Shown here: piece after piece, positions 14,305-49,759 of the stretch
Layout: the number at the start of each line of letters is the position of its first letter
Numbering within the stretch: the stretch's first letter is position 1
DNA from: Thermoplasmata archaeon
GTDB taxonomy: Archaea; Thermoplasmatota; DTKX01; JAHFTX01
Assembly: GCA_023265395.1 (NCBI GenBank)
Contig: JAHFTX010000006.1
Location: 696-64,695, forward strand
Direction of reading: 5' to 3'
DNA: 64,000 bases
Made by a program: the position numbers and the translations under genes
The notes under the pieces: model-generated
Database searches by the model: none
What the model was told of the DNA's origin: nothing
Seen by the model: only the letters and a program-made list of their open reading frames with translations

Positions 14305-17300
14305 ATGAGTGATGCCCTGAAGGAACGCTTAAGCAACGCCTCGACTCGTGCATCAGGGTCGCTGTCGTGGCGCGGGGCGTGGCAGATGCGTCTTGGCACC
14401 GTCTCGGTCCGCTCCGGACAGGTCGTCGGGCTGGTCCTGCTGCTCCTCACCGCGGGGGTGCCGTTGCCCGGCAGCGATGGCTCGCTCAGTGGGGGGGCGT
14501 CGAGCAACCTCTTCGGCTCTCTAGGGTCGTATGTCCTCAACGGCAACACCAGCGCGGGCTGGGCAGGCTGGAGCGTCGCCCCGATAGGTGACTTCGATGG
14601 CGATGGCTACGACGACTTTGCGGTGGGCGCTCCTGGGGATCTGGATGGGTTCGCTCTGGCCGCTCCCGGCCACGTCGAAATCGTCTTTGGACGCGGGGCG
14701 CCAATGGAGACGCCGCAGATCCTCCAACAAGCAGCCGCCGCCGATGGTCTTCGTCTGACCGGGTTGCAGGACAAGGACCAGTTCGGACGGTCCCTTGCAG
14801 CGCTCGGAGACTTCGATGGTGACGGGTTCGACGATTTTGCGGTCGGGGCGCCAAATCACAAGGTAGTCCTGAAGAACGGAGCTGGACGGGTCTATGTGAT
14901 TCGCGGTGGTGATGGCGATGGCAATGGTGCAGATATCGATGCGGAAGCGGCCGACATCGACACCAACACTTTCCACTGGGATGGGTTGCACGCCGACGAC
15001 CGGGTCGGCTTTTCTGTTTCGGGGGCCGGGGACGTCACCCGTGATGGCAGGGGCGAGCTGCTGGTGGGGGCGCCGGGCTACTCCACCCCTCCCGTTTCAG
15101 ACGATGCAGGAGTGGCCTACCTCATCGATGGCCAATCGTGGAACGATGGGGGGGTGGGGGACGGGGGCACTATCGATTCCGTGGTACATTCCGAATTCAG
15201 AGGCGTCGGCCTCAACGGGCACTTTGGGAACACCACGGCAGGTTGGGGTGACTACAACAAGGATGGTCTCCTCGATGTCGTCATCGGTGCTCCTGACCTC
15301 TCGCCATTGGGCACGACCCTTCCGGGCCGGATCTACGTCTATTATGGCAGCAACGATGGCTGGGGGGCGATAATCGGCGTCGGGCTCGCTGGAGACATCT
15401 TCGACGGACTGAAGAACGACCATCACTTGGGATGGTCCCTCGCCAACATCGGTGACACCGATGGCGATCAGTATGACGACCTGCTCGTGGGGATGTACGG
15501 GGTAGAGAGCGATACGTCTGACGTGATCTCGGGGGAGGATTATCTCCTCTTGGGTCAGGATAGACCTTGGAGGGGGGAGGGGCAGGACATCGGTGACGTC
15601 GCGATGCCCTCCATCATCGCCCCGCAGAACAGCCTTCACATCTTTGGTTTCCCTGTCGGCGCTGCTGGTGACCTCTCTGGGGACACCTGGGCGGACATCG
15701 CAGTAGCGGCCCTGTCCGAATACGACATCGGCTGCCTTCCGGCAGCCGCCGAACAGACCACGTATGTCCGCGCCGGGACCGACCAGCTGACGAACACGGT
15801 GCAGATGGCCAGCCTCACGCCCAGCTACAAGGAGAACTGTGTGAATCGCCCCAAGCTGGCGCCGCAATCGGTCGCGTCGGCCGGTGACTTCGATGGCGAT
15901 GGTGTCGATGAGCTGCTGCTGGGCGGCTGGTCCTCCGACGCGGCCGCTCCCAACGGGGGCGCCGCCTACCTGCTCAACCCAGGGTCCAACAGCGAACCGA
16001 GCCAGCCGAGCGACTTGAAGTTCTACGCCGACCCGGCCTACTCCATCCCCGTCAGCTGGGCTGATGTCGGGCACCGCGTCTACATCCAGCTCGATGCGAC
16101 GGACCCTGATGCCCTCAACGCCAACGTGGCACGACTGCGCGTACGTGCCGATGAGGGGGTGTGGCACACCATACGCGCCTACGAGACCGGCCACAACACC
16201 GGCCGCTATCGGACGTACCTCGACCTGCAGTCGTGGACCGACCTGCACCACCACATCATGGGCGTCGCCATCGGTCAAACGCTTCGTGTCGAGGTCGAGG
16301 CCCTCTCCAACGGAGTCGGCCATACCATATCGATCGGGCCACTGGGGCTCGGCCCGCTGCCGTGGCAGCAGGATGCGACAGAGGACCAGCCCTTCCTGCT
16401 CGGCCTGGTCGTGCAGAATGCGACTGCCCCCTTGGTGGACGCTGTGGCAGGCGCGAACTGGTTGACCTTCGATGCGAGCAACTGGACGGTCGGCGGCACA
16501 CCCGACAACGCTGCAGTCGGTGGCGTTTCGGTCAATGTCACGGTCACCGACGCCTTCGACGTCTCTGTCTTGCGCACCTACCTCATCACGGTACACAACG
16601 AACCCCCGGCAGTCATCGGCCCATTGGTCGCCCCCGATGCCGTCCAAGATGTCCCGTACTCGCTCGATCTCAACAGCACTGACGATGGCCAAGGGACGAT
16701 CACGTGGGTGATCGACCAAGGACCGGCATGGTTGTCGATCGATGGCGCGGGAAGGCTCAATGGCACGCCGAGCAACGGCGATGTCGGGATGAGCGACCTG
16801 AATGTCAGCGTCGATGACGGCAATGGCGGCATCGATACGTGGACGGCTGCTCTGACCGTGCTCAATGTCAACGACCCGCCGACGGTCCTGACCACGGTGA
16901 TGCCGGATGTCGTCGATGAGGACAGTCTGTTGCTGGTGACCCTCCAGGGAAGCGACCCGGACCTCGACGACACGGACCTGGTCTGGAACCTCAGCGGGGG
17001 GGATCCGTGGCTCTCCATCGGTCCTGAGAATGGTACGTTGACGGGGACCCCCAGCAATGCCGATGTCGGCGCCCACGAACTGAGCGTGACGTTGACCGAT
17101 CGTGGCGGAGCGACAGACACGCGTGATTGGACCTTGCAGGTACGCAACGTCAACGACCTTCCCACCTTCATCAGCAGCCCCCCATTGGGGGCCTCGGTCG
17201 GCGCCCCGTATGAGTACAAGGCGCTGGTCGAGGAGGTCGATCTCGGTGACACCGTCAACTTCTCGCTTTCGAGCCCGCCCGCTGGCATGACTGTCGACCG

Positions 17301-20166
17301 AGCGACGGGCTTCGTGCAGTGGGCGCCAGATCCGACCCAAGTCGGGCCGTTCGGCGTGACCATCGTCGCCAGCGATGGCCATGGTGCGACCGAGCAGGTC
17401 TACGAGGTCGTCGTCCGCGCCTCCGGAGGCCCACCCCTGGCACAGCTGCTCGCGCCCAAGGATACCCAGGTGGTCAATACCCTCACCCCCTCGCTCAGCT
17501 GGAGTGGCAGCGACCCCGACAACGATGAGCTCACCTACGACGTCTATCTCTCGTCGTCGCGTGCCCAGTCGGGCACCCTCGCTGGGATTGCCGTGATAGC
17601 GGAGAACATCACGGAGACCTTCATCACTCTCGATCCGCTGACCCCCAACGCAACCTATTACTGGACCGTCATCCCCAGCGACGGGACGGCTCCGGGAAGC
17701 TGCGCCCAGGGTGTGTGGAGCTTCTCCATCGCTGCCGATGCGACGATCAACGCGCCGCCGCGATTCCTCAGTGAGCCGCCGCTGACCGCGCTCATCGGGG
17801 CAACCTACAGTTACGACGTCGCTGGAGACGACCCCGAAGGGATAGGGCTCACCTTCGCTCTGGAGCAAGGCCCCGATGGCATGACCCTGACCGCCTCAGG
17901 CGAGCAAGGCGCCCAGGTGCGGTGGGTCCCCCAGGCTGGCCAGCAGGGGACGGTCCAGGTGGTCCTGCTGCTCAGCGATGACGCGACCACCATCACGCAG
18001 GGCTTCTCGATCCGCGTGGGGGACTCGACGAACTCCCCGCCAACAGTGACCCTCGACTCCCCCGAGGATGGCGAGGTCTTGCAGACCACCATCGTGCAGC
18101 TGCGGTGGTCGCTGACCGACGTCGACGGTACGCTGCTCAATAGCACCATCTACCTCTCGACCGATCAATCGCTCGTCGAACGTCACCACGAGATCAGCCA
18201 GCTGACGGTGCTCTCGCAGAGCAAGAACCAATACCGCCTCCCCATCCCGCTCAAGCCCACCATCGTCTACTACTGGACCATCGTCGTCGATGATGGCGTC
18301 TTCGTCACCCCGGCACCGCGGGTGTTCTCCTTCACCATCGATTCGAAGGCGACCGAGAACCACCCCCCCACGGCCATCGGTCCCGCCGTGGTCAACCTCA
18401 CGGTCGACAAAGGTGCCCACATCCAGCTGCTCGCCAGCGACCATGAGCACGCCACGTTGACCTTCGCCCTCTCGAGCGGACCGCCAGGACTGACCGTCTG
18501 GCCCGGCGGCGAGCTCGTCTGGACGCCTCACGAGGAGAACATCGGGATCACCACCGTGCGGTGGACCGTCTCAGACGGGCTAACGACGACCGAAGGGGTG
18601 ACGGTGCTCAACGTCCGGGCCGCGGGCAGAGGGGACCCCAACGACCCGGTGGTGTTCCACCTGAGCACCCTCCCCGTGCACCTGAGCGGGCTGCTCGCGC
18701 TGCTGGCGGCAGTGGCGATCGGTGCGATCCTCGCGCTGTTGCTGGTGGGCGCTCGTCGGAAGCGCCGCAGCAGTGGAGCGGAGGGCAGCGCCACCAGTGG
18801 CGGCGTGTCAGGAGGGTCGGGTGCCAGCGGTGCAGCGGCGGCAGGAGCCGCCTCGATGGTGGTGCCGATGGAAGCAGCGGCCAGCGACGAGGTCGATCCC
18901 TTCCACATCGCCTCGGTGCTGGTGATGCTCGACGACGGGCGCCTCATCATCAGCCGACATGCCCCCGCGGCCGTCGGGAGCACCTCCGCGCCGACCTCGG
19001 AGGAACTGATGCCCGAGGAGCTGCTCAGCTCGATGCTGGTGGCCATCCGCTCCTTCGTCAGGGAGTCCTTCAAGACGGAGGCAGGCCTGCAGCAGTTCGC
19101 CTTCGACCGCTACCAGGTCGTGCTGCGTGCCTCCGGTCCCGTGCTCATGGCGGTCCTGGTCGAAGGCACGCCCCCGCCGGCGCTCGAAGAGTCGATCGAC
19201 CGGACGCTCTTGGCCCTCACCACCAGTTACGGCGCTGCCATCGCCACCTGGGACGGCGACCTGACGCTCTTCTCGGGAGCGGGCGCCACCCTCGAACCGA
19301 TCTTCGCCCTCGAGCACCAGCTGGCCCAGAAGGCGGTCACCCACGAGGTCCGCCTGCGCTCGGGGCTCGAGTTCTTCCAGGGCTACGTCCGCCTCAAGGT
19401 CGCCGTGCTCAACGACACCTCCGAGGTGGTCACAGACTGCGAGTTGCAAGTGCGGTACGACCGGCAGTACCTCTTCCTCGACCGAGTCGAACCCGCCTTG
19501 GAGCGGGACGGCTCGACGGTGCTGGTGGGCACGGTCAGCCCCGGGGGGAAGAAGACCGTGGCCTTCTTCCTCGATCCGCAGATCTGTCAGGAGACGGCCC
19601 TGGATGCCACGCTCTTCTTCAAGGACGCCAAGGGCGAGGCGCACCACGTCGCCATGAAGCGTCGCCACGTCGACGTCGTCTGCCCGGTGTTCTACACCCC
19701 CTCGACGATCAACTCGGCGATCCTGCGGCGGTTGCTGAGCAAGGCCACCGAGCAGGACGTGCGGACCTACCAGCCACCTGCGGGGACCTCGTTGATGGAC
19801 TTCTACAGCCGCGTCAAGGGGGTCCTCGAGGGATTCCACATCAGCCTCGTGCGCGAACTCACCCAAGACGATGCGCCCCATGGGGTCGTCCCGACGACGG
19901 TCGCATGGTACTATGGGGTCTCCTCAGGCAGCCAAGAGGAGATCGTCCTGTCGGTGGCCACCGACCCGCGCAGCCAGACCGTCTCGGTGACGGTGGCGAC
20001 CTCCAACGTCGCGACCTTGACAGGGCTCTTGGCCGAGCTGCACCACCGCATCAGCGCCGCGATCAGTGGTGCGCGGCCACACCGGGAGGCCATCGAAGGG
20101 CTCACCGAGCGGTCGATGCGCCTGCTCCAGCGCGTCGATGAGGCGGAACTCGAGGTAGCGGAATAG
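14305..20166 (+). CDS. Giant membrane-anchored FG-GAP propeller / cadherin-like adhesin with cytosolic longin/roadblock-like domain
   Basis: Seven FG-GAP motifs (GDFDGDGYDDFAVGAP, GDFDGDGFDDFAVGAP, GDVTRDGRGELLVGAP, GDYNKDGLLDVVIGAP, GDTDGDQYDDLLVGMY, GDLSGDTWADIAVAAL, GDFDGDGVDELLLGG); He_PIG/CADG-like repeats; FnIII-like repeats; TM LSGLLALLAAVAIGAILALLLVGARRKRR; ~430-aa cytosolic tail. Confidence 0.9.
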   Translation: MSDALKERLSNASTRASGSLSWRGAWQMRLGTVSVRSGQVVGLVLLLLTAGVPLPGSDGSLSGGASSNLFGSLGSYVLNGNTSAGWAGWSVAPIGDFDGDGYDDFAVGAPGDLDGFALAAPGHVEIVFGRGAPMETPQILQQAAAADGLRLTGLQDKDQFGRSLAALGDFDGDGFDDFAVGAPNHKVVLKNGAGRVYVIRGGDGDGNGADIDAEAADIDTNTFHWDGLHADDRVGFSVSGAGDVTRDGRGELLVGAPGYSTPPVSDDAGVAYLIDGQSWNDGGVGDGGTIDSVVHSEFRGVGLNGHFGNTTAGWGDYNKDGLLDVVIGAPDLSPLGTTLPGRIYVYYGSNDGWGAIIGVGLAGDIFDGLKNDHHLGWSLANIGDTDGDQYDDLLVGMYGVESDTSDVISGEDYLLLGQDRPWRGEGQDIGDVAMPSIIAPQNSLHIFGFPVGAAGDLSGDTWADIAVAALSEYDIGCLPAAAEQTTYVRAGTDQLTNTVQMASLTPSYKENCVNRPKLAPQSVASAGDFDGDGVDELLLGGWSSDAAAPNGGAAYLLNPGSNSEPSQPSDLKFYADPAYSIPVSWADVGHRVYIQLDATDPDALNANVARLRVRADEGVWHTIRAYETGHNTGRYRTYLDLQSWTDLHHHIMGVAIGQTLRVEVEALSNGVGHTISIGPLGLGPLPWQQDATEDQPFLLGLVVQNATAPLVDAVAGANWLTFDASNWTVGGTPDNAAVGGVSVNVTVTDAFDVSVLRTYLITVHNEPPAVIGPLVAPDAVQDVPYSLDLNSTDDGQGTITWVIDQGPAWLSIDGAGRLNGTPSNGDVGMSDLNVSVDDGNGGIDTWTAALTVLNVNDPPTVLTTVMPDVVDEDSLLLVTLQGSDPDLDDTDLVWNLSGGDPWLSIGPENGTLTGTPSNADVGAHELSVTLTDRGGATDTRDWTLQVRNVNDLPTFISSPPLGASVGAPYEYKALVEEVDLGDTVNFSLSSPPAGMTVDRATGFVQWAPDPTQVGPFGVTIVASDGHGATEQVYEVVVRASGGPPLAQLLAPKDTQVVNTLTPSLSWSGSDPDNDELTYDVYLSSSRAQSGTLAGIAVIAENITETFITLDPLTPNATYYWTVIPSDGTAPGSCAQGVWSFSIAADATINAPPRFLSEPPLTALIGATYSYDVAGDDPEGIGLTFALEQGPDGMTLTASGEQGAQVRWVPQAGQQGTVQVVLLLSDDATTITQGFSIRVGDSTNSPPTVTLDSPEDGEVLQTTIVQLRWSLTDVDGTLLNSTIYLSTDQSLVERHHEISQLTVLSQSKNQYRLPIPLKPTIVYYWTIVVDDGVFVTPAPRVFSFTIDSKATENHPPTAIGPAVVNLTVDKGAHIQLLASDHEHATLTFALSSGPPGLTVWPGGELVWTPHEENIGITTVRWTVSDGLTTTEGVTVLNVRAAGRGDPNDPVVFHLSTLPVHLSGLLALLAAVAIGAILALLLVGARRKRRSSGAEGSATSGGVSGGSGASGAAAAGAASMVVPMEAAASDEVDPFHIASVLVMLDDGRLIISRHAPAAVGSTSAPTSEELMPEELLSSMLVAIRSFVRESFKTEAGLQQFAFDRYQVVLRASGPVLMAVLVEGTPPPALEESIDRTLLALTTSYGAAIATWDGDLTLFSGAGATLEPIFALEHQLAQKAVTHEVRLRSGLEFFQGYVRLKVAVLNDTSEVVTDCELQVRYDRQYLFLDRVEPALERDGSTVLVGTVSPGGKKTVAFFLDPQICQETALDATLFFKDAKGEAHHVAMKRRHVDVVCPVFYTPSTINSAILRRLLSKATEQDVRTYQPPAGTSLMDFYSRVKGVLEGFHISLVRELTQDDAPHGVVPTTVAWYYGVSSGSQEEIVLSVATDPRSQTVSVTVATSNVATLTGLLAELHHRISAAISGARPHREAIEGLTERSMRLLQRVDEAELEVAE

Positions 20167-23141: not shown

Positions 23142-25967
23142 GTGCTGCGTTCGTCGTCGGTCCGGTCGCTGCGATGGGGCATGGGCCCCAGCCTTCTGGT
23201 GCTTGCGTTGCTGGTCGTTGCCCCCATGGTCGGTGGCATGCCCATCGTCGACCAGCAGGACGCCGAGGCTGCCGGCGCGGCGTGGCTCGCCCAGCGTGAC
23301 GCTGCCGCGACATGCCCCGACGGGCCGAGCGGCCGCGATGTGGTCCAGACCTTCGATGTGGACGTCTCCTTCGAGTGGAAGGCGACCTTCCAGCAGTTCT
23401 CGCAGATGGACACCGGCTGGCACAACGCCAACGACCTGCTCTACGACGTCACTGATGGCCAGACCGCCTACCGCAAGGTCGACCTGTGGTGGAACAAGAA
23501 GAATTGGGGCACCGCGGATGTGCGCGTGCATGATGAGGGTAACTACCGTGCCTATACGTTTCGTGGGGCCATCACCGATCCGAGCGTGCCGATCCACGTC
23601 GGGCGCGACAGCCAGGGTGCTGCCTGGAACAGCTACGTGGGCGCTGCGACTCTGGTGCACGAATGGGGACACTACGCCTTCTGGCTCGACGACGAGTACG
23701 TCGACGGGCCGGGGGGCTCGGTCCCTGCGGAGAGCAACATCAACATCATGGCCGACGGTTCCACCTCGGAGTGGTGCACGGCGACCAACCACAACTCCGT
23801 TAGTCCGGGGCAAGAGGCCCTGAGCGCCTGGTCCCAGGCGGTCAACCACTATGCTCAGATGAACGTCCCGGCGGCCCTTCCTGACCCCGGGGCACCAGGG
23901 AGCGCCCCCGACGTCGAGGTGGTCTGGCACTTCCCCAACCTGCACATCCTGCCCACCGGACTGGTGCCCGAGCACGCTGAGGGCTTGGCGGGTTCCACGA
24001 TGGATATCACGATCCAGGTCGAGAACGACGAAGGGCTGGTCAACGAGGAGGTCCGCGTCGCTCTCTACGATGGAGACCCCCGCATCGACGGCCAAGAGGT
24101 CGCCTACGCGCTGTACAACCCCTCCAACGAGGCCACCAGCTGGGTCACCCTCCCCTACACCCTGCTGGATGGCGAGCAGACGCTGTGGGCAGGTATCGAC
24201 CACGACCTCAAGCAGCCCGAGCTCGACGAGGATGACAATTACCAATCCGTCGAACTCTATGGCCGGCAGGCCCCGCTGATCGCCACCAACATCGGCTCGA
24301 CGCTCAAGGGCGACGAGGACCACCCGCTGATGGTCGATTTCTCCTCCTATGCCTCTGACCCCGAGGACGATGCCGCCGACCTGCGCTGGTCGGCGATCGA
24401 TGTCGACGAGGATGCGATCGCCGAGGTCCTCCCCGACACTGGAGACGGCGTGCTCACCTTCGTGCCCGTCGCCAACTTCAACGGCAAGACCGACGTCACC
24501 CTCGTGCTCACTGACAGCGATGGCATGCAGGCCACCAAGGTCATGTCGCTGAGCTTCACCGCCCTCAACGATGCACCTCAACCGGCTGACATCATGCTCT
24601 TCCCCGCGACCGTCTACCGCCTCTCGCCCTTGCAGATATCCTTCTCGGGGGTCGACGTCGAGGATGCGCCGACCTCGCTGGTGGGCACCGTCGGTCTGCG
24701 CCCCAGCGGCGACGAGGGGCTGTGGCAGGAGATTCCCGCCCTGTTCGATGGCAGCCGCTTCCTGGCCACGCTGACACCCTCGGGGGACCAGCAGCCGGGG
24801 AGCTACGACGTTCGGGCGACCCTGACGGATTCTGAGGCTGGCCTCAGCGAGCCCTTCTACACCAACGGCAGCCTGCAGATACTCGACAACCTCCCGCTGG
24901 TCAGCGACGACTGGGAGGTCGTCGACGACGACCTCGATCGAGGCCAGACGATGGAATTGCAGGTGAGCGCCACCGATGCCGAGGATTCCTCCTCGGACCT
25001 GCGCTTCGAGCTCGAAGTCTCCCTCGCGGGCCGGGGCCGCTGGCGGTCGCTCGATGCTACCGAATTCAACAACAGCGCAGAATCCGACGGCGGTAACGGA
25101 TGGATCCTCAGCCCCGTGCTACCGCTCGATCTGACGGTGGGCCCGCAGGACCTGCGCCTCCGGGCCATCGACACCGATGGCGTCGCTGGGGAATGGGTCG
25201 AGCTCTCCCGGGCGATCACCGTCCAAAACGTAGCCCCCTCTTTGGTGCAACTGAAGGCCGCGGACAGCTCCATCGCGCGGCTCGGGCAGACCACCCTCCA
25301 GGTGGTCGTCTCCGATGCTGAGAGTCCCGCGGAGCAGGTACATGTAGAGTTGACCATGACCACCTCCGAGGACCGCGGCGGCTACACCGAGGATGGGGTG
25401 GGCACCCCGCTGTGGAACGCCACCGTCGGTTGCTGGGACATCCCCTTCCAGCCCCCGCACGGTCTGGCCCCCGGGGACCTAGAGGTCCAGGTCGTCTTGA
25501 CCGACCAGGACGGCGGCACCTCCACCACCGAGCAGCTCGAGGTGCTCAAGGTGACCAACAATGCCCCGTCCATCGTCGCGACCGTGCCCACCAAGATCAA
25601 GGCGGGTGCGGTGTTGCGCGTCGATGCCCACCTGAGCACCGACCTCGAGGACCGCAGCAACCAGCTGACCTACTCTTGGTCCTTTGGCGACCGCAAGCAG
25701 CCGACCCTGGGCAGCATCTCGACCCATAGCTACAGTAGCGCGGGGAACAAGGTCGTCACCCTGACTGTCACCGACCGCGATGGGGGCAAGAGCACCCAGA
25801 CGTTCAAGGTCAAGGTCGAGTCGGCCGGGCTGAGTTCGACCTTCAGCAGCGGCAATGGCGGCAGTTCCGCGTTGGTGCCAATCATCCTGCTCCTGGCCTT
25901 GGTCGGCGTACTCGCCGTGGTGTTCTTTGTGTTCCGCGGCCGACTGATGGGACTGCTCAAGCGCTAG
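23142..25967 (+). CDS. Secreted, C-terminally anchored zinc metalloprotease with CLCA-type catalytic signature and Ig/PKD-like repeats
   Basis: Signal peptide; LVHEWGHYAFWLDDEY zincin motif; SNINIMADGSTSEWCTATNHN; Ig/PKD repeats; C-terminal TM ALVPIILLLALVGVLAVVFFVFRGR. Confidence 0.85.
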   Translation: MLRSSSVRSLRWGMGPSLLVLALLVVAPMVGGMPIVDQQDAEAAGAAWLAQRDAAATCPDGPSGRDVVQTFDVDVSFEWKATFQQFSQMDTGWHNANDLLYDVTDGQTAYRKVDLWWNKKNWGTADVRVHDEGNYRAYTFRGAITDPSVPIHVGRDSQGAAWNSYVGAATLVHEWGHYAFWLDDEYVDGPGGSVPAESNINIMADGSTSEWCTATNHNSVSPGQEALSAWSQAVNHYAQMNVPAALPDPGAPGSAPDVEVVWHFPNLHILPTGLVPEHAEGLAGSTMDITIQVENDEGLVNEEVRVALYDGDPRIDGQEVAYALYNPSNEATSWVTLPYTLLDGEQTLWAGIDHDLKQPELDEDDNYQSVELYGRQAPLIATNIGSTLKGDEDHPLMVDFSSYASDPEDDAADLRWSAIDVDEDAIAEVLPDTGDGVLTFVPVANFNGKTDVTLVLTDSDGMQATKVMSLSFTALNDAPQPADIMLFPATVYRLSPLQISFSGVDVEDAPTSLVGTVGLRPSGDEGLWQEIPALFDGSRFLATLTPSGDQQPGSYDVRATLTDSEAGLSEPFYTNGSLQILDNLPLVSDDWEVVDDDLDRGQTMELQVSATDAEDSSSDLRFELEVSLAGRGRWRSLDATEFNNSAESDGGNGWILSPVLPLDLTVGPQDLRLRAIDTDGVAGEWVELSRAITVQNVAPSLVQLKAADSSIARLGQTTLQVVVSDAESPAEQVHVELTMTTSEDRGGYTEDGVGTPLWNATVGCWDIPFQPPHGLAPGDLEVQVVLTDQDGGTSTTEQLEVLKVTNNAPSIVATVPTKIKAGAVLRVDAHLSTDLEDRSNQLTYSWSFGDRKQPTLGSISTHSYSSAGNKVVTLTVTDRDGGKSTQTFKVKVESAGLSSTFSSGNGGSSALVPIILLLALVGVLAVVFFVFRGRLMGLLKR

Positions 25968-40315: not shown

Positions 40316-43300
40316 TCAGCGGCCTGCCCGCCGGCGCCGCCGCCGACGGACCCACGCCGGCACGCCCACCACCACGGCGATGCCCGAGCCGATCACAAGC
40401 AGGATCAAGAGTGCGGTCATCGGTGGCCCCAGGACGTGGGGAGGGCTTTCCTCCGAGACCACGACGACGACCTTCTCGTCCGCCGAGGCGTTCCCGTCGT
40501 CGACGACCCGCAGCCGCACCAGATAGGTGCCGCTCCGATGGTAGGTGTAACTGGTCGCACCGGTGACGTTGGAGACGAAGTCGTCGACCCCATCGCCGTC
40601 GAAGTCCCAGGAGTACTGGACGATCCGACCGTCGATGTCGATCCCCTGGCCCTCGACGATCATGCGTTCCCCGATCAGGAGTTGGCGCGCGCCGCCGGCG
40701 AGCGCCCGTGGGGGTTGGTTGGCAGGCACCTCCAGGCGCAGGCGGTTGTCCGTCTCGTTCTCCTCGGGGGTTGCGCCGGAGGGGTCGAGGATCGCCGTCA
40801 GCAGGTGGGCGGAGGGCTCCCCTTCGAAGGGGACCAGTACGCTGGTGGTCGCGCCCGCACGCAACAGGGGCACCTGGCGGTCCTCTGCGACGGCGCCATC
40901 GACGAGGATCCGGACTACCAGCCCATCGAGGTCCTGTACGCCCCGGTTGTGGACCTCCACTGCGATGTCGTAGCGGTTGAGACTGAGGTTGCCGCCGCTC
41001 CGGACGGTGCGGTACTGGTGGCGGGTGAGGTTGAGCAGCTGGGCTTGGGTCCCCTGTGCAGTCTCGAAGGTGACGTTGACCGGTGCACCGACCGCGGGGC
41101 GCCCGATCTGGAGCTGCGCCTGCTGCATGCTCTCGTTGGGCAGGGCCAATGCGCCGGTGGCATCCAGCCGGAGGTGCAACTCGTCCCCTGCGCCGGGTTC
41201 GGGTGGTGCGGCCAGGCCGATGACCGAATCTCCGCCTGCCTCGAGCCCGACGATCCCCCGATGCGTCGTCGCAGCGGCGGCGCCATCCAGCTGCACCTGC
41301 CAGGGGCGCGCAGAGGTCGCTCCGGAGTTCCGCACGGTCACGAAGAACCACCGGGCCTGCCCGGCAGGATCGAGGCCCAGGGAGACGTTGCTGATGACCA
41401 CGGAGGGTCGAGGGACGTCCCACTGCACCTGGAGCCGGTTGTCCCCGGTCTCGAGCTCGCCTCCCAGATGTTCGGCGTTGACGATCACCGCCACCTCCGT
41501 GGCGCCGGCGACGGCGGTGCGCAGCACCTGGAGGTCGGCACTGGCACCGGCGCCCAGCGCTGGGCACGGTCCGGTTGCGATCCCATTGCCGTCGGCAAGG
41601 GCCACCAACCGTGGTGCTCGGAGCGTGGCACCGCCGTCGTTGTGCAGTCGCAGGGGCAGCGCTGCCAGCAGGCCGTCGGGCAGTGGCGGCGGAGCCAGGC
41701 CCGAGAGCCGCCACTCGGGGGCGCTGACGTTCAGACCCACCGCCTGACGGTTGTCGAGCGTCAGTCGTTCGGTGACGTTCAGGCCGGTGACCTCGGCGAC
41801 GATCTGGTGGCGCCCTCCGACGGCTTGGAGGATGGTCCCCACGTCGCTGCCGCCCGCAGGGAGGGCTCCGATCACGGTGGTCGCCACGGGTTCACCGTCG
41901 AGGCTGAGGTTGAGCAGGATGGGACCGAGCAAGGGCTGGTCGGCCCGCAGATGGACACTCAGCAGCACCCGCTCCCCGTCGATGGGCTGCGGAGGGCTCA
42001 GCGTCACTCCAGAGACCTCGATGTTGGGTGCGGCCGCCGTCGGCCCGTCGGTGCGCGGCAGCTCCCCAAGGATGACGACTTGGGCGGATCGATGTCCCCC
42101 CTCGAGGGCCTCGGGCACGAGGTCATCGGGGTCCGCTAGGAGTGCCAGGTCGACCGTCCCTTCGAGGCTCGCGACGTGGGGGACGACCGCGCTGACGATG
42201 AGCGTACCACCACCCTCGAGGCCGGGGGCACTGGCTCGCCCGACCTGCGCACCGTCGAGCTGAAGGGCGGCGCTGACCGTGCGCAGGGTCGGCCCCCCGA
42301 TGTTCGTCAGGTGGCCTAGCACCAGCAGTCGGCCATCGTGCAAGTCATAGGCCTCGAGCGCACCAGGGAGCAACTGGGCAGGTTGCGCGACCACGGAGAG
42401 GTTGAGGAGCTGGTCATCCTCCGCGGCTTCGGCGATGGCGTCGGCAGGATCGATCGTCGCCCGTAGGATGTGTCGGCCCGCTAGGGCGACAGCCTCGACG
42501 CCGACCCACGTGCTGTTGCCGCTGCCCAGCGGGGGCAAGCGCGCCTGCGCAAGCAAGGCGCCATCTTGCGTGAAGAGGACCGACCCAGGGAGGATCGATG
42601 GCCCTCCGAGGTTGGTCACCAACATCTGCACGATGACCGGAGCGCCATCGATGCCGCTGCCGAGGACCGCCAGCTCCAGGCCCTCGAGCTGGGGAGGGTC
42701 AGGGCCCTCAAGCAGGAGGGTGCGGACGTTGTCTGCCTCGCTGGCCTCGCGCAGCAGGTCCGTCGGGTCGACGAGGCATTGCACCACATGGGACCCTGGT
42801 CCGAGCGTGACTCGCACGACGGCTGCTGCATGGCCGTCGCTGGGAAGGCCACCGATGGCCCATTGCTGGACCACGTCCCCGTCGGCGCGCACCTGCACGA
42901 GCGCCTCGCCGAGCAGGGGTGCGCCGTCGTTGTGCACCGTCACGCGCACCAGCAGGCTGCCATCAGCCGGGGCGGCGTCGGTGGGCAACACGACGGGCTC
43001 GAACGTCTCGATGCGCAGCTGCGGTGCCGGGATATCGACGATTCCCAGCGGGGTCACTCCGCGATCGGCCTCATTGGCCTCCGTCAGCGCGTCGGCGGGA
43101 TCCAGCAACAGGCCCAGCTCATGCAGCCCCGGAGCGAGCGGGACGCTGAGGGTAAGGGACTGGTTCGACAGCCCGGTCATTGGGAGCAACCGCACCTGGC
43201 TGAGCACCTGCCCGTCACGCAGCAGGAGCGCTGGCGGAGGGTCAGCGACCGCGCCCCCGCGGTTCTGGATCGTCAGTTGCAGCGGTAGCGGCAGACCCGC

Positions 43301-46093
43301 GGCCTGCTGCACCGGAAGGGATGGTCGCACCACGAAGAGGTCGGGCACCGTCACCCCAGCGGTGCCCACGGCCAGCTGGTCGGAGAGGTCCGAAGCTCCC
43401 CACTGCTCCAAGGGATCGACCACGGCAGCGATGGCGTGGAAGCCCGGCGACAGCCGAGCGCTCAACGCCACGGTCACGGCGCCATCGAGGGAGACACCAT
43501 TGAGGGTGCGCCGTCCGAGGAGCTCGCCGTCAGCATAGAAGCGGACCTCCGCTCCGCCACCGAGCGCCCCGGCGCCACGGTCCGTGACGGTCGCAAAGAG
43601 GGTGGTCTGCTCGCCCGCGACGGCCAACGGCGGGACCGCTTCGATGGAAGCCAGCGCCAGGTCAGGACGTTGGAGCGAGAGGTTGGCTGTCGCGCGGTTG
43701 TCCCCCTCGTCGAGTTCCAGCAGATGGCCTTGGTGGTCGAGCCAGACGAGATACTGGTGCTCCCCGCCCATGGCAGTGGTATGAAAGGTCATCGTCGAGA
43801 CGTCGGCCTCGAAGGTCAATGACCCGACCGCGGAGAGGCGTCCATCCGTCAAGAGGGCTACCGAGGGCGGTCCTAGGGCATCGGCGTCCCCGGTGGCCCT
43901 GACGCTGACGATCACGTCCAGAGGATCACCGACGTGCGGCTGGGCGGGGTCGAGCCGCAGTGCACTGACCGTCAGGTCGACCGCCTGCAAGGGGGGAACG
44001 GCGATACCGCTGGGAAGCGCGATCGCCATCGTGTTGTCGAGCTCATTGGCCTCAGCAACCGCGTCGGCGGCATCGAGGATGGCCGAGAGCACGCCCCCCT
44101 CGAGTGTGGTCGAGAAGGAGAGTGCACGGACTCCACCGCCGACGAGCCCAGGGAGGCTGCGGCTGCCCACGAGCACCCCGTCGGCACGGATCTCGACCAG
44201 TAACGGCCGCAGCGTGCTGCCTCCGAGGTTGCGCGCCAGCAGCGTTACCGTCACCGGGTCACCCAGCCCAGCATCGGCTGGGGAGAACTGCAGGTCATCC
44301 ACCCGCAGCTGCGGGGCCAGGCCCACGGGCGTGCGCAGCTGGGTCCGATCGCCCAGGGTCGCATCGGGGACCACCCCAGAGGGATCGACCTCGACGCTCA
44401 CGAGGGCGGCACCAAGGGTGACGACCCATGGCAGGTCCAGCGTCGTGGTACGGTTGGCACCCAGCCCGGCGATCGTCGAAGAGGCGATGGGCGCCCCATC
44501 CTGCAAGAGCACGACGTCGAAGGAGCGCACGGTCGGCGCACCGACGTTGCGGACTTCGATGTGCACCAGGCCGTTGGCGCCATCGATCCCGGTGCTGGGC
44601 ATGGTGACATTGGTCAGGCGCAGGTCCGGCCTCGAAGTCGTGGCGTTGGTGGACGCGGCATTGTCTCCCCAGCGAGATTCGAGCACGCGGCGGTCCTCGT
44701 TGACGCTCAGCCGATACAGATGCACCCCCGAGCGGTGGGGCAGGTGCAGCGTCACCGTGGTCGTGCCGTCGGCCGGGGGCACGGGCAGCAACACGCTGGC
44801 CGTCTCGCCGCCATCGACCGTCGCGACCACCGCGACGTCGCCCAGGTGGTCCCCGCCGGAATTGCGGACCTGCGCGCGCACCTCGATGGTGCCCCCGTCG
44901 ATCGGGACGAGCGGACTGATCAGCAGGTTCTCGACACTCAGTTGCGGTTGGGGGATGACGACGAGGAGCTGGGTACCATCCGGGGCGCGGTCGTCCTCCA
45001 AGAGGAGCCCTTCAGGATCGACCTCGACGCGCAAGAGGTGGCTTCCTCCGGTGGCTCCCCAGGGGAAGATGAGGGTCGTGTTCTCGCCGGCGGCCAGTCC
45101 CACCACGCTCGCACTTCTGATGGGACTGCCATCGACGGTCAGGCGCACCGGGACCCGAGCGAGGGTGCTGGCGGCACCATTGGTGATGTTGGCGACGACC
45201 TGGGGCTGCTCCCCGGAGCGAATCCCCTCGGGCCCGACGGCCGTCCCGTTGGCGTGCAGCAGCCGGAGCGGGCCGATGCCCAGATCGGGCAACTGTTGTC
45301 CCAGGATCGCAACGACGGAGTTGTCGACCTCCGTCCCTTCGGCGATGGTGTCGGCAGTGTCGGCGATGCCGCGCAGGACGAGCGGACCGTTGCCCATGCG
45401 GGCCGTCGCCCGCAGGTGCCAGGTGCTCCCCGCCGACAGGCCTGCGACGGTCTGGGCCCCGATCGTCTGCTCGCCGGCGCTCAGGCGCACGACGAAGGGG
45501 CGTACGGTGGTGGCGCCGTCGTTATGCAGCCGCAGGTCGACGCTGACCTGCTCCCCCGGCAAGGGGTCGGTCGTAGGCTCGATGGCCAGCGGCTCGAGGC
45601 GGAGCTGCGCACGGGGCACGCTGACGACGGTGTCGGCGGCATTATTGGCACGATCGGCCTCTCCCAACCCCAGTGCGGTCGCCTCGACACGCAACTGATG
45701 GATGCCTGCCTCTGCGGGCCACTCCAACACCGCCGAGGTGGTGACGGCGAGCACCTGCACGGAAGCCGCAGCCTGCGGGAGGCCGTCGACAGAGAGTTGG
45801 AGCCGGACCTCGTCCGGCAGGGGGACAAGTGTGCTCCGCAGTGTCACGACCACCTGCAGTGGCAGGCCGTCGACCGGTGCCGGCGGCGTCAGGGCGATGC
45901 CCTCGACCGATAGGTCGTCCCCAGAGCCCAGTTGGCGGCCGAGCGTCGTCATGGCAGGCCGGGGTCCCTCGATGCCGTCCTCGATCGGGGCGGTGGCGAT
46001 GAGCTGCAAGGGGGATGTCAGCACCACGGCGAGCAGGATCGCCGTGATGGTGCGGAACGAGCGCAGCGACGCTGCCGAAGGCCGTGCGGCCAT
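40316..46093 (-). CDS. Giant CARDB-repeat surface protein with C-terminal PKD domain and TM anchor
   Basis: MAARPSAASLRSFRTITAILLAVVLTSP signal; ~16 degenerate CARDB-like repeats; PKD GIDIDGRIVQYSWDFDGDGVDDF...TYHRSGTYLVRLRVVDD; TM then RRRRRRRAGR. Confidence 0.88.
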   Translation of the reverse strand: MAARPSAASLRSFRTITAILLAVVLTSPLQLIATAPIEDGIEGPRPAMTTLGRQLGSGDDLSVEGIALTPPAPVDGLPLQVVVTLRSTLVPLPDEVRLQLSVDGLPQAAASVQVLAVTTSAVLEWPAEAGIHQLRVEATALGLGEADRANNAADTVVSVPRAQLRLEPLAIEPTTDPLPGEQVSVDLRLHNDGATTVRPFVVRLSAGEQTIGAQTVAGLSAGSTWHLRATARMGNGPLVLRGIADTADTIAEGTEVDNSVVAILGQQLPDLGIGPLRLLHANGTAVGPEGIRSGEQPQVVANITNGAASTLARVPVRLTVDGSPIRSASVVGLAAGENTTLIFPWGATGGSHLLRVEVDPEGLLLEDDRAPDGTQLLVVIPQPQLSVENLLISPLVPIDGGTIEVRAQVRNSGGDHLGDVAVVATVDGGETASVLLPVPPADGTTTVTLHLPHRSGVHLYRLSVNEDRRVLESRWGDNAASTNATTSRPDLRLTNVTMPSTGIDGANGLVHIEVRNVGAPTVRSFDVVLLQDGAPIASSTIAGLGANRTTTLDLPWVVTLGAALVSVEVDPSGVVPDATLGDRTQLRTPVGLAPQLRVDDLQFSPADAGLGDPVTVTLLARNLGGSTLRPLLVEIRADGVLVGSRSLPGLVGGGVRALSFSTTLEGGVLSAILDAADAVAEANELDNTMAIALPSGIAVPPLQAVDLTVSALRLDPAQPHVGDPLDVIVSVRATGDADALGPPSVALLTDGRLSAVGSLTFEADVSTMTFHTTAMGGEHQYLVWLDHQGHLLELDEGDNRATANLSLQRPDLALASIEAVPPLAVAGEQTTLFATVTDRGAGALGGGAEVRFYADGELLGRRTLNGVSLDGAVTVALSARLSPGFHAIAAVVDPLEQWGASDLSDQLAVGTAGVTVPDLFVVRPSLPVQQAAGLPLPLQLTIQNRGGAVADPPPALLLRDGQVLSQVRLLPMTGLSNQSLTLSVPLAPGLHELGLLLDPADALTEANEADRGVTPLGIVDIPAPQLRIETFEPVVLPTDAAPADGSLLVRVTVHNDGAPLLGEALVQVRADGDVVQQWAIGGLPSDGHAAAVVRVTLGPGSHVVQCLVDPTDLLREASEADNVRTLLLEGPDPPQLEGLELAVLGSGIDGAPVIVQMLVTNLGGPSILPGSVLFTQDGALLAQARLPPLGSGNSTWVGVEAVALAGRHILRATIDPADAIAEAAEDDQLLNLSVVAQPAQLLPGALEAYDLHDGRLLVLGHLTNIGGPTLRTVSAALQLDGAQVGRASAPGLEGGGTLIVSAVVPHVASLEGTVDLALLADPDDLVPEALEGGHRSAQVVILGELPRTDGPTAAAPNIEVSGVTLSPPQPIDGERVLLSVHLRADQPLLGPILLNLSLDGEPVATTVIGALPAGGSDVGTILQAVGGRHQIVAEVTGLNVTERLTLDNRQAVGLNVSAPEWRLSGLAPPPLPDGLLAALPLRLHNDGGATLRAPRLVALADGNGIATGPCPALGAGASADLQVLRTAVAGATEVAVIVNAEHLGGELETGDNRLQVQWDVPRPSVVISNVSLGLDPAGQARWFFVTVRNSGATSARPWQVQLDGAAAATTHRGIVGLEAGGDSVIGLAAPPEPGAGDELHLRLDATGALALPNESMQQAQLQIGRPAVGAPVNVTFETAQGTQAQLLNLTRHQYRTVRSGGNLSLNRYDIAVEVHNRGVQDLDGLVVRILVDGAVAEDRQVPLLRAGATTSVLVPFEGEPSAHLLTAILDPSGATPEENETDNRLRLEVPANQPPRALAGGARQLLIGERMIVEGQGIDIDGRIVQYSWDFDGDGVDDFVSNVTGATSYTYHRSGTYLVRLRVVDDGNASADEKVVVVVSEESPPHVLGPPMTALLILLVIGSGIAVVVGVPAWVRRRRRRRAGR

Positions 46094-48940: not shown

Positions 48941-49759
48941 ATGGGATATCCACCGCGACGCCAGGGCCTCGACGGGCTTTTCGACGACATCGATCATGCC
49001 GTCGGGGGCGCCACGGGCAACATCCGCACCTGCCCCTGTGGCCGAGGGGGCGTCATCGAATGGGTCCCCCAGTACGCCCAGTGGTATTGTCGCACGTGCA
49101 GCCAGTACATCAAGCCGGCCCAGCTCCAGCAAGTCCTCCCCCAATCGCCCGTCTGTCCACGCTGCAGTCAGCCTGCGCTGTTCTTCTCCCAATACTACCA
49201 ACGCTGGTACTGCAACTCGTGTAAGCAGTACTCCGATTCACCCTCGACGGCAGGTGCGGCCGCGGCGGTGCCTTCAGGCCCACCGGTCGGGTCGCCGATG
49301 GCAGCGCACGGCGGCGCAGGGCCCGGTGGCGTTGCGCAGCAGTCGGCGCAGACGGGGACGATAATCGAGGACCTCTTCCTGCTCTACAACGACGGGCGGT
49401 TGATCCGGCACCACACCCGGCGGCTCAAGCCCCACATGGACAGCGACATCCTCACGGGGATGCTCAGCGCCATCCAAGACTTCGTGCGCCAGACGATCGC
49501 GACCGACGATGACTCGACGCTCGAGCAGATCCACGTCGGCCGCAACAAGATCTTCCTTCGCCGGGGCCGGTACCTGAGCATCGCCGCGATGGTCGATGGC
49601 GAGGACGTCGAGGGGATCAGCGGGCAGCTCCAGCGGTTCGTCACCGAGGTCGAGCGCGATCATGAGGGCGTGCTCAAGGACTGGCAGGGGGACATCGCCT
49701 CGCTCAAGCCCCTCAACGAGCCGCTCCAGCGGCTGCTCACCACCGGCTTCCAGGGCTGA
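48941..49759 (+). CDS. Double Zn-ribbon protein with C-terminal longin/roadblock-like domain
   Basis: TCPCGRGGVIEWVPQYAQWYCRTC and VCPRCSQPALFFSQYYQRWYCNSC; C-term GTIIEDLFLLYNDGRLIRHHTRR...ILTGMLSAIQDFVRQTI homologous to the 14305 product tail. Confidence 0.85.
   Translation: MGYPPRRQGLDGLFDDIDHAVGGATGNIRTCPCGRGGVIEWVPQYAQWYCRTCSQYIKPAQLQQVLPQSPVCPRCSQPALFFSQYYQRWYCNSCKQYSDSPSTAGAAAAVPSGPPVGSPMAAHGGAGPGGVAQQSAQTGTIIEDLFLLYNDGRLIRHHTRRLKPHMDSDILTGMLSAIQDFVRQTIATDDDSTLEQIHVGRNKIFLRRGRYLSIAAMVDGEDVEGISGQLQRFVTEVERDHEGVLKDWQGDIASLKPLNEPLQRLLTTGFQG

Follow-up and report, generated by a model that had tools for sequence, protein, structure and literature searches.

The building blocks of vesicle coats are usually framed as an Asgard-to-eukaryote story. 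The longin domain is the fold of the AP/COPI small chains and of Sec22; in eukaryotes, longins often act in the service of small GTPases or in the assembly of coats, and the longin proteins Mon1-Ccz1, TRAPP and DENN act as GTPase exchange factors. Adaptin appendages have been published in archaea, among them those of the 'Meth_adaptin' ESCRT loci, notably the GOLD-TM-appendage protein WP_013898578.1, and Asgard multidomain proteins combine Vps28-C, an adaptin appendage and a longin (Makarova et al., 2024, PMC10936438), and the Asgard AP/COPI domains were described as 'not fused to each other' (Eme et al., 2023, PMC10307638). A study from 2016 (PMC4915359) recorded single Rab-like GTPases, without longins, in Aciduliprofundum and in a Thermoplasmatales archaeon. 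In the openly accessible literature, no mention was found of surface receptors with a longin-appendage tail or of longins and GTPases co-occurring in the phylum.

The locus analyzed here encodes a euryarchaeal membrane receptor that combines, in one chain, a surface ectodomain with predicted longin and appendage-like domains. It resembles WP_013898578.1 in being a TM protein with an Ig-sandwich plus helix-grip appendage-like unit outside Asgard, in a genome that also has Vps4, Snf7 and SPFH-like proteins, but differs in having a longin before the appendage, a propeller/Ig ectodomain and 12 paralogs. Compared with the 'Meth_adaptin' loci, the receptor gene lies outside the ESCRT locus and belongs to a different lineage, whose ESCRT has been described as reduced. 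With the Asgard proteins it shares two domains of archaeal occurrence and a predicted GTPase link; unlike them, it joins longin and appendage in tandem as a single-pass tail, lacks Vps28-C and is non-Asgard. The predicted folds and the sandwich-then-platform order are those of the eukaryotic AP2/COPI appendages and the AP/COPI/SNARE longins, whereas no sequence-level signal is present and the putative adaptor is covalently part of the receptor, with the ectodomain and TM in place of the HEAT-repeat trunk of an AP/COPI subunit.

The receptor ORF occupies positions 14305–20166 (+) of the window, that is, the whole 64,000-nt stretch of DNA analyzed, and comprises 1953 aa. The internal ATG at 14386 is a plausible alternative start, giving a more typical signal-peptide start and being preferred by a codon-usage gene caller; the signal peptide or N-terminal hydrophobic segment (14386–14472 (+), aa 28–56) follows from there. 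Pfam found exactly seven FG-GAP stretches (E 3e-33), which make up a predicted seven-bladed propeller of the integrin-alpha type (14530–16070 (+), aa ~76–589), with seven regular motifs between aa 96 and 540. These DxDxDG-type (Ca-binding) motifs lie at aa 96, 169, 243, 316, 384, 456 and 528, and their regular spacing of 68–74 aa indicates that the propeller repeats are not due to chance. Ig-like repeats follow at 16072–18624 (+) (aa ~590–1440), with six He_PIG stretches (E 1e-35), Big_9 repeats and a weak FnIII-like segment. Both the seven FG-GAP motifs and the He_PIG/CADG repeats had been read from the letters in the first-pass annotation and were confirmed, while its two FnIII-like segments shrank to one fn3 match (E 0.086, below threshold). 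By analogy with these families, the propeller probably binds Ca2+, and propeller and Ig stalk together may bind a ligand or surface. Since FG-GAP matches are frequent in the receptor's own genome (70 at E<=1e-3) and integrin-type propellers are already known from bacteria (PMC3192720), the ectodomain alone is ordinary. A dedicated partner gene adjoining the receptor was sought and rejected: the neighbours, which are sugar-metabolism-like upstream and wHTH and ccmF-like downstream, show no apparent relation to it.

A single TM helix was identified at 18691–18747 (+) (aa 1463–1481), with a Kyte-Doolittle value of 3.06 and a position that is conserved among homologous tails, and a basic stop-transfer, GARRKRRSSG, follows directly on the cytosolic side (18748–18777 (+)). 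The only other hydrophobic candidate segment in the receptor is the N-terminal signal (1.71 at aa 38–56). About 460–470 aa thus remain inside the cell, slightly more than the ~430 aa first predicted. Among the distinct full tails of the phylum, 22 of 24 have a TM segment <=180 aa upstream, and in 21 of these 22 TM-bearing tails the inside flank is the more positive one (mean net charge −0.9 outside and +2.7 inside), indicating that the membrane side of the tail is conserved. The arrangement of one membrane pass and a large, structured tail in the cytosol, including the TM and its basic stop-transfer as originally proposed, is therefore real and conserved, and the AlphaFold model of the tail does not have the fold of extracellular Ig-like domains.

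The earlier designation as an integrin/dystroglycan-like protein was upheld for the propeller and the Ig repeats only. Integrin alpha and the bacterial integrin-type propeller proteins (PMC3192720) also have seven FG-GAP blades, an Ig-like stalk and a single TM, but the Ig repeats of the receptor are of the He_PIG/Big_9 type, GFFKR is missing after the TM, the tail is long and folded (~460 aa), and this tail is common to paralogs with other ectodomains and without the propeller. As regards dystroglycan, which has CADG repeats plus a SEA-like autoproteolysis domain, He_PIG/cadherin-like repeats were found in the receptor and Pfam gave no SEA match. The integrin/dystroglycan comparison is superficial.

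The cytosolic tail (window 18856–20163) matched no family in Pfam or NCBIfam, in which a kinase, receiver or other enzymatic domain was also not found. Its structure was predicted with AlphaFold2 from the window tail and seven homologs (8 sequences; pLDDT 78.5, pTM 0.54), and that of a homologous longin domain from a second, equally shallow alignment (8 and 9 rows in the two cases). The first predicted domain of the tail is a longin at 18904–19332 (+), whose order of elements, b1-b2-a1-b3-b4-b5-a2-a3, is the longin topology and recurs in the sister copy. This copy (49355–49753) is the homologous domain of a soluble protein encoded at 48941–49759 (+), in which it follows zinc ribbons. The sister model (pLDDT 79, pTM 0.73) structurally matched AP2 sigma, zeta-COP, AP1 sigma, Mon1-Ccz1, roadblock proteins and Sec22b. 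The best superposition, which was run on this soluble copy as a homolog of the receptor tail, was on the Sec22b longin (TM 0.75/0.77, rmsd 2.8 Å, 130 columns). A roadblock fold was considered and rejected on the strand-helix order and on the superposition (TM 0.75 for Sec22b against 0.4–0.6 for roadblock). The MglB/roadblock GTPase regulators are members of a related longin/roadblock superfamily and are likewise associated with GTPases, but the receptor-tail family has the longin order, and GTPases track the longin rather than Robl_LC7. In Pfam, Fuz_longin_1 was the top family for 26 longin copies, with weak matches (best E 0.014).

After the longin, the model shows an eight-strand beta-sandwich (19348–19653 (+)), then a platform at 19714–20064 (+), whose a-b-a-b-b-b-b-a succession contains the b-a-b4-a core and is the order of a helix-grip platform, and finally a C-terminal helix of low confidence (20089–20160 (+), pLDDT about 42–48). 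When the whole tail was compared with the PDB by Foldseek, ranks 1–11 were all taken by COPI leaf, AP2-alpha, AP2-beta and gamma-COP appendages (E 5e-10 to 4e-8, prob 1.00). The alignments covered entire appendages, with both subdomains in order, and AP2 mu and BBSome chains came after these hits. The whole-model TM to the appendages was low (0.28–0.37 by target, rmsd ~16 Å), perhaps because the inter-domain placement is uncertain at a pTM of 0.54, or else because of a real difference in pose. Comparison of the profiles of the tail and of the longin, and of an appendage consensus, with PDB sequences gave nothing relevant, and the tail matched none of the Pfam appendage models. Similarly, hhalign of the tail profile against single sequences of AP2-alpha, AP2-beta, gamma-COP, mu2 and sigma stayed at the noise level set by shuffled and reversed controls. 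Homology to the eukaryotic adaptors thus rests on structure only, and the unit was therefore named appendage-like and not filed as an appendage member. Based on these models, a longin followed by an adaptin/COPI appendage-like unit (sandwich plus platform) is well supported as the predicted make-up of the tail, which takes the place of the cytosolic signalling-type domain of the first-pass annotation; shared ancestry with AP/COPI is probable on the predicted folds, a descent that the sequence does not show.

The tail proved to be a multiplied module. When used as a single sequence against genome contigs it found no relatives, while an alignment-based contig search recovered 7 loci, spread over three MAGs named 'Euryarchaeota archaeon'. 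The receptor's own genome has 11 further ORFs with a nearly full-length tail (31–49% identity), giving 12 full tails in total, and about a dozen copies of the N-terminal longin part alone. Full tails were present in all five genomes examined of the class, and the single domains are more widespread in the phylum. An alignment of 21 tails with 29–49% identity to the query has 22 invariant columns. Two of the positions invariant in 21/21 tails are cysteines near the sandwich/platform junction (C244 and C276 of the alignment), which is unusual for a cytosolic domain; they may serve metal binding, a disulfide or packing. On the outer side, most paralogs bear other ectodomains than the propeller receptor, the combinations being FG-GAP/He_PIG, Kelch/laminin-G/fn3, PKD/CARDB, Big_13/CARDB, He_PIG/Big_9 or none recognised; across the family, then, the tail side is conserved and the ectodomains are not. 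Longin and sandwich occur with no platform detected at L038, L045, L072 and L073 in genomes of other families (G007, G389 and G094), and this arrangement is possibly a step towards the full tail. A 622-aa membrane protein (L126:3944-5809 (+)) carries two longin-family copies in tandem, an arrangement also seen in other genomes (G001:C282, G003:C268).

The distribution of the longin family was compared with that of Ras/Rab-like GTPases. Ten Ras-like GTPases were found in the receptor's own genome at E<=1e-12, and the two tested were assigned to the Ras family by Pfam. Among 41 relatives, ten genomes have the longin family, and precisely these ten, with no others, have Ras-like GTPases. In a set of 390 genomes from the phylum, the longin was present in 52, a Ras-like GTPase in 54 and both in 48 (Fisher 7e-50), that is, the GTPases are present in 48/52 longin genomes versus 6/338 of those without the longin. 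At the family level, which alone allows for kinship and does so partly, a GTPase was found in 25/26 longin families versus 2 of at least 28 others (p about 1e-11). Robl_LC7 roadblock genes were rejected as an explanation of GTPase presence, with 3/64 genomes having a GTPase when Robl was present without the longin, against 13/17 when the longin was present without Robl. Longin and GTPase matches lie within about 1.2 kb of each other in nine genomes of six families. This association holds for the entire longin family, in which most copies are without the appendage half, and the receptor gene itself (14305–20166) has no GTPase gene beside it. A coupling of the longin family to Ras/Rab-like GTPases is thus moderately supported. 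Longin-family genes are neighbours of Ras-like GTPase genes in several families of the phylum, for example at G001:C282, G014:C33, G250:C23 and G079:C159, which are ready candidate pairs.

That longin relatives occur almost only in archaea with Ras/Rab-like GTPases suggests that this non-Asgard archaeal receptor is connected to a system of sorting or membrane remodelling under GTPase control. On balance, we think it probable, if by no great measure, that the protein is a single-pass surface receptor of type I that carries its own adaptor as a cytosolic tail, in which the longin docks a GTPase and the appendage recruits partners. Outside, the propeller and Ig stalk would bind a ligand or surface; inside, the longin would dock one of the cell's Ras/Rab-like GTPases in a nucleotide-dependent manner, and the sandwich-platform unit would recruit cytosolic partners, probably by way of short linear motifs, in the manner of AP2 and COPI. 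Such GTP-dependent docking may cluster, position or sort the receptor with its cargo, or drive local membrane remodelling. The wider view, put forward tentatively as a possibility that we find somewhat doubtful, is that of a GTPase-controlled cargo-receptor system in non-Asgard archaea, in which a longin-plus-appendage adaptor was fused to a surface-receptor family as a one-piece counterpart of eukaryotic AP/COPI sorting, possibly ancestral to it or parallel. Whether archaeal small GTPases recruit longin-bearing membrane receptors thereby becomes testable outside Asgard, and the question is raised of whether a receptor-fused adaptor tail is an old or an independent way of sorting membrane proteins.

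Outside-in adhesion and signalling in the integrin sense, by which a ligand would change the tail and thereby regulate a GTPase with no sorting or membrane remodelling, could draw on the same propeller/Ig ectodomain, single TM and GTPase-linked longin, and some longin proteins are indeed GTPase exchange factors. It is nevertheless unlikely in our view, as in known systems the appendage-like half serves for recruitment (PMC10936438), the ectodomains are too diverse for one common signalling geometry, and the tail is devoid of enzymatic domains; the observations are explained no less well by an adaptor or sorting role linked to a GTPase. Still less probable is a passive adhesin, whose tail would merely anchor or space surface proteins and whose likeness to appendages would reflect convergence of a common sandwich plus alpha/beta domain. 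The undetected sequence homology to adaptor proteins and the abundance of FG-GAP and Ig surface proteins in the same genome would agree with it, but convergence sits poorly with 11 top Foldseek matches that are all appendages with both subdomains in order, with the 22 invariant positions in such divergent tails, and with the near-perfect co-occurrence of longin and GTPases.

The remaining alternative, to which we give about as little credence as to the passive adhesin or marginally less, is an ESCRT-linked sorting receptor, whose appendage would pass cargo to the ESCRT-III/Vps4 machinery of its own genome. An ESCRT-like cluster does lie on another contig of this genome (G000:C54:34000-53900; L135:2213-15842). 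It encodes a Vps4 with MIT, AAA and AAA_lid_3 that is CdvC-like over its length, a Snf7 (Pfam E 4e-4, below the cut-off), a protein that is SPFH-like by sequence reading (Pfam giving only SHOCT), a protein with a winged-helix-like C-terminus, and two sandwich/platform proteins, one of 238 aa resembling this unit by eye and the other a 1916-aa membrane protein with a clear match (E 3e-47). The cluster resembles the 'Meth_adaptin' ESCRT loci of Methanobacteriales, which pair appendages with ESCRT (PMC10936438). It is also richer than the ESCRT systems of Thermoplasmata, which have been reported as reduced. In another genome (G004), wH, Snf7 and Vps4, recognised by sequence likeness, are kept together. 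Against an ESCRT link, the receptor gene lies outside this locus, and a 99% complete genome with many tails (G002) has no Snf7 match at E<=0.01, indicating that the tails are not strictly dependent on ESCRT.

Two further proteins of the window were recorded. A 928-aa protein encoded at 23181–25967 (+) has a metalloprotease-like HEWGH motif, in a region with no Pfam match, together with Ig/PKD repeats and a C-terminal TM. At 40316–46093 (−) lies the gene of a very large repetitive surface protein of 1925 aa, which has a PKD domain besides its 11 CARDB stretches.
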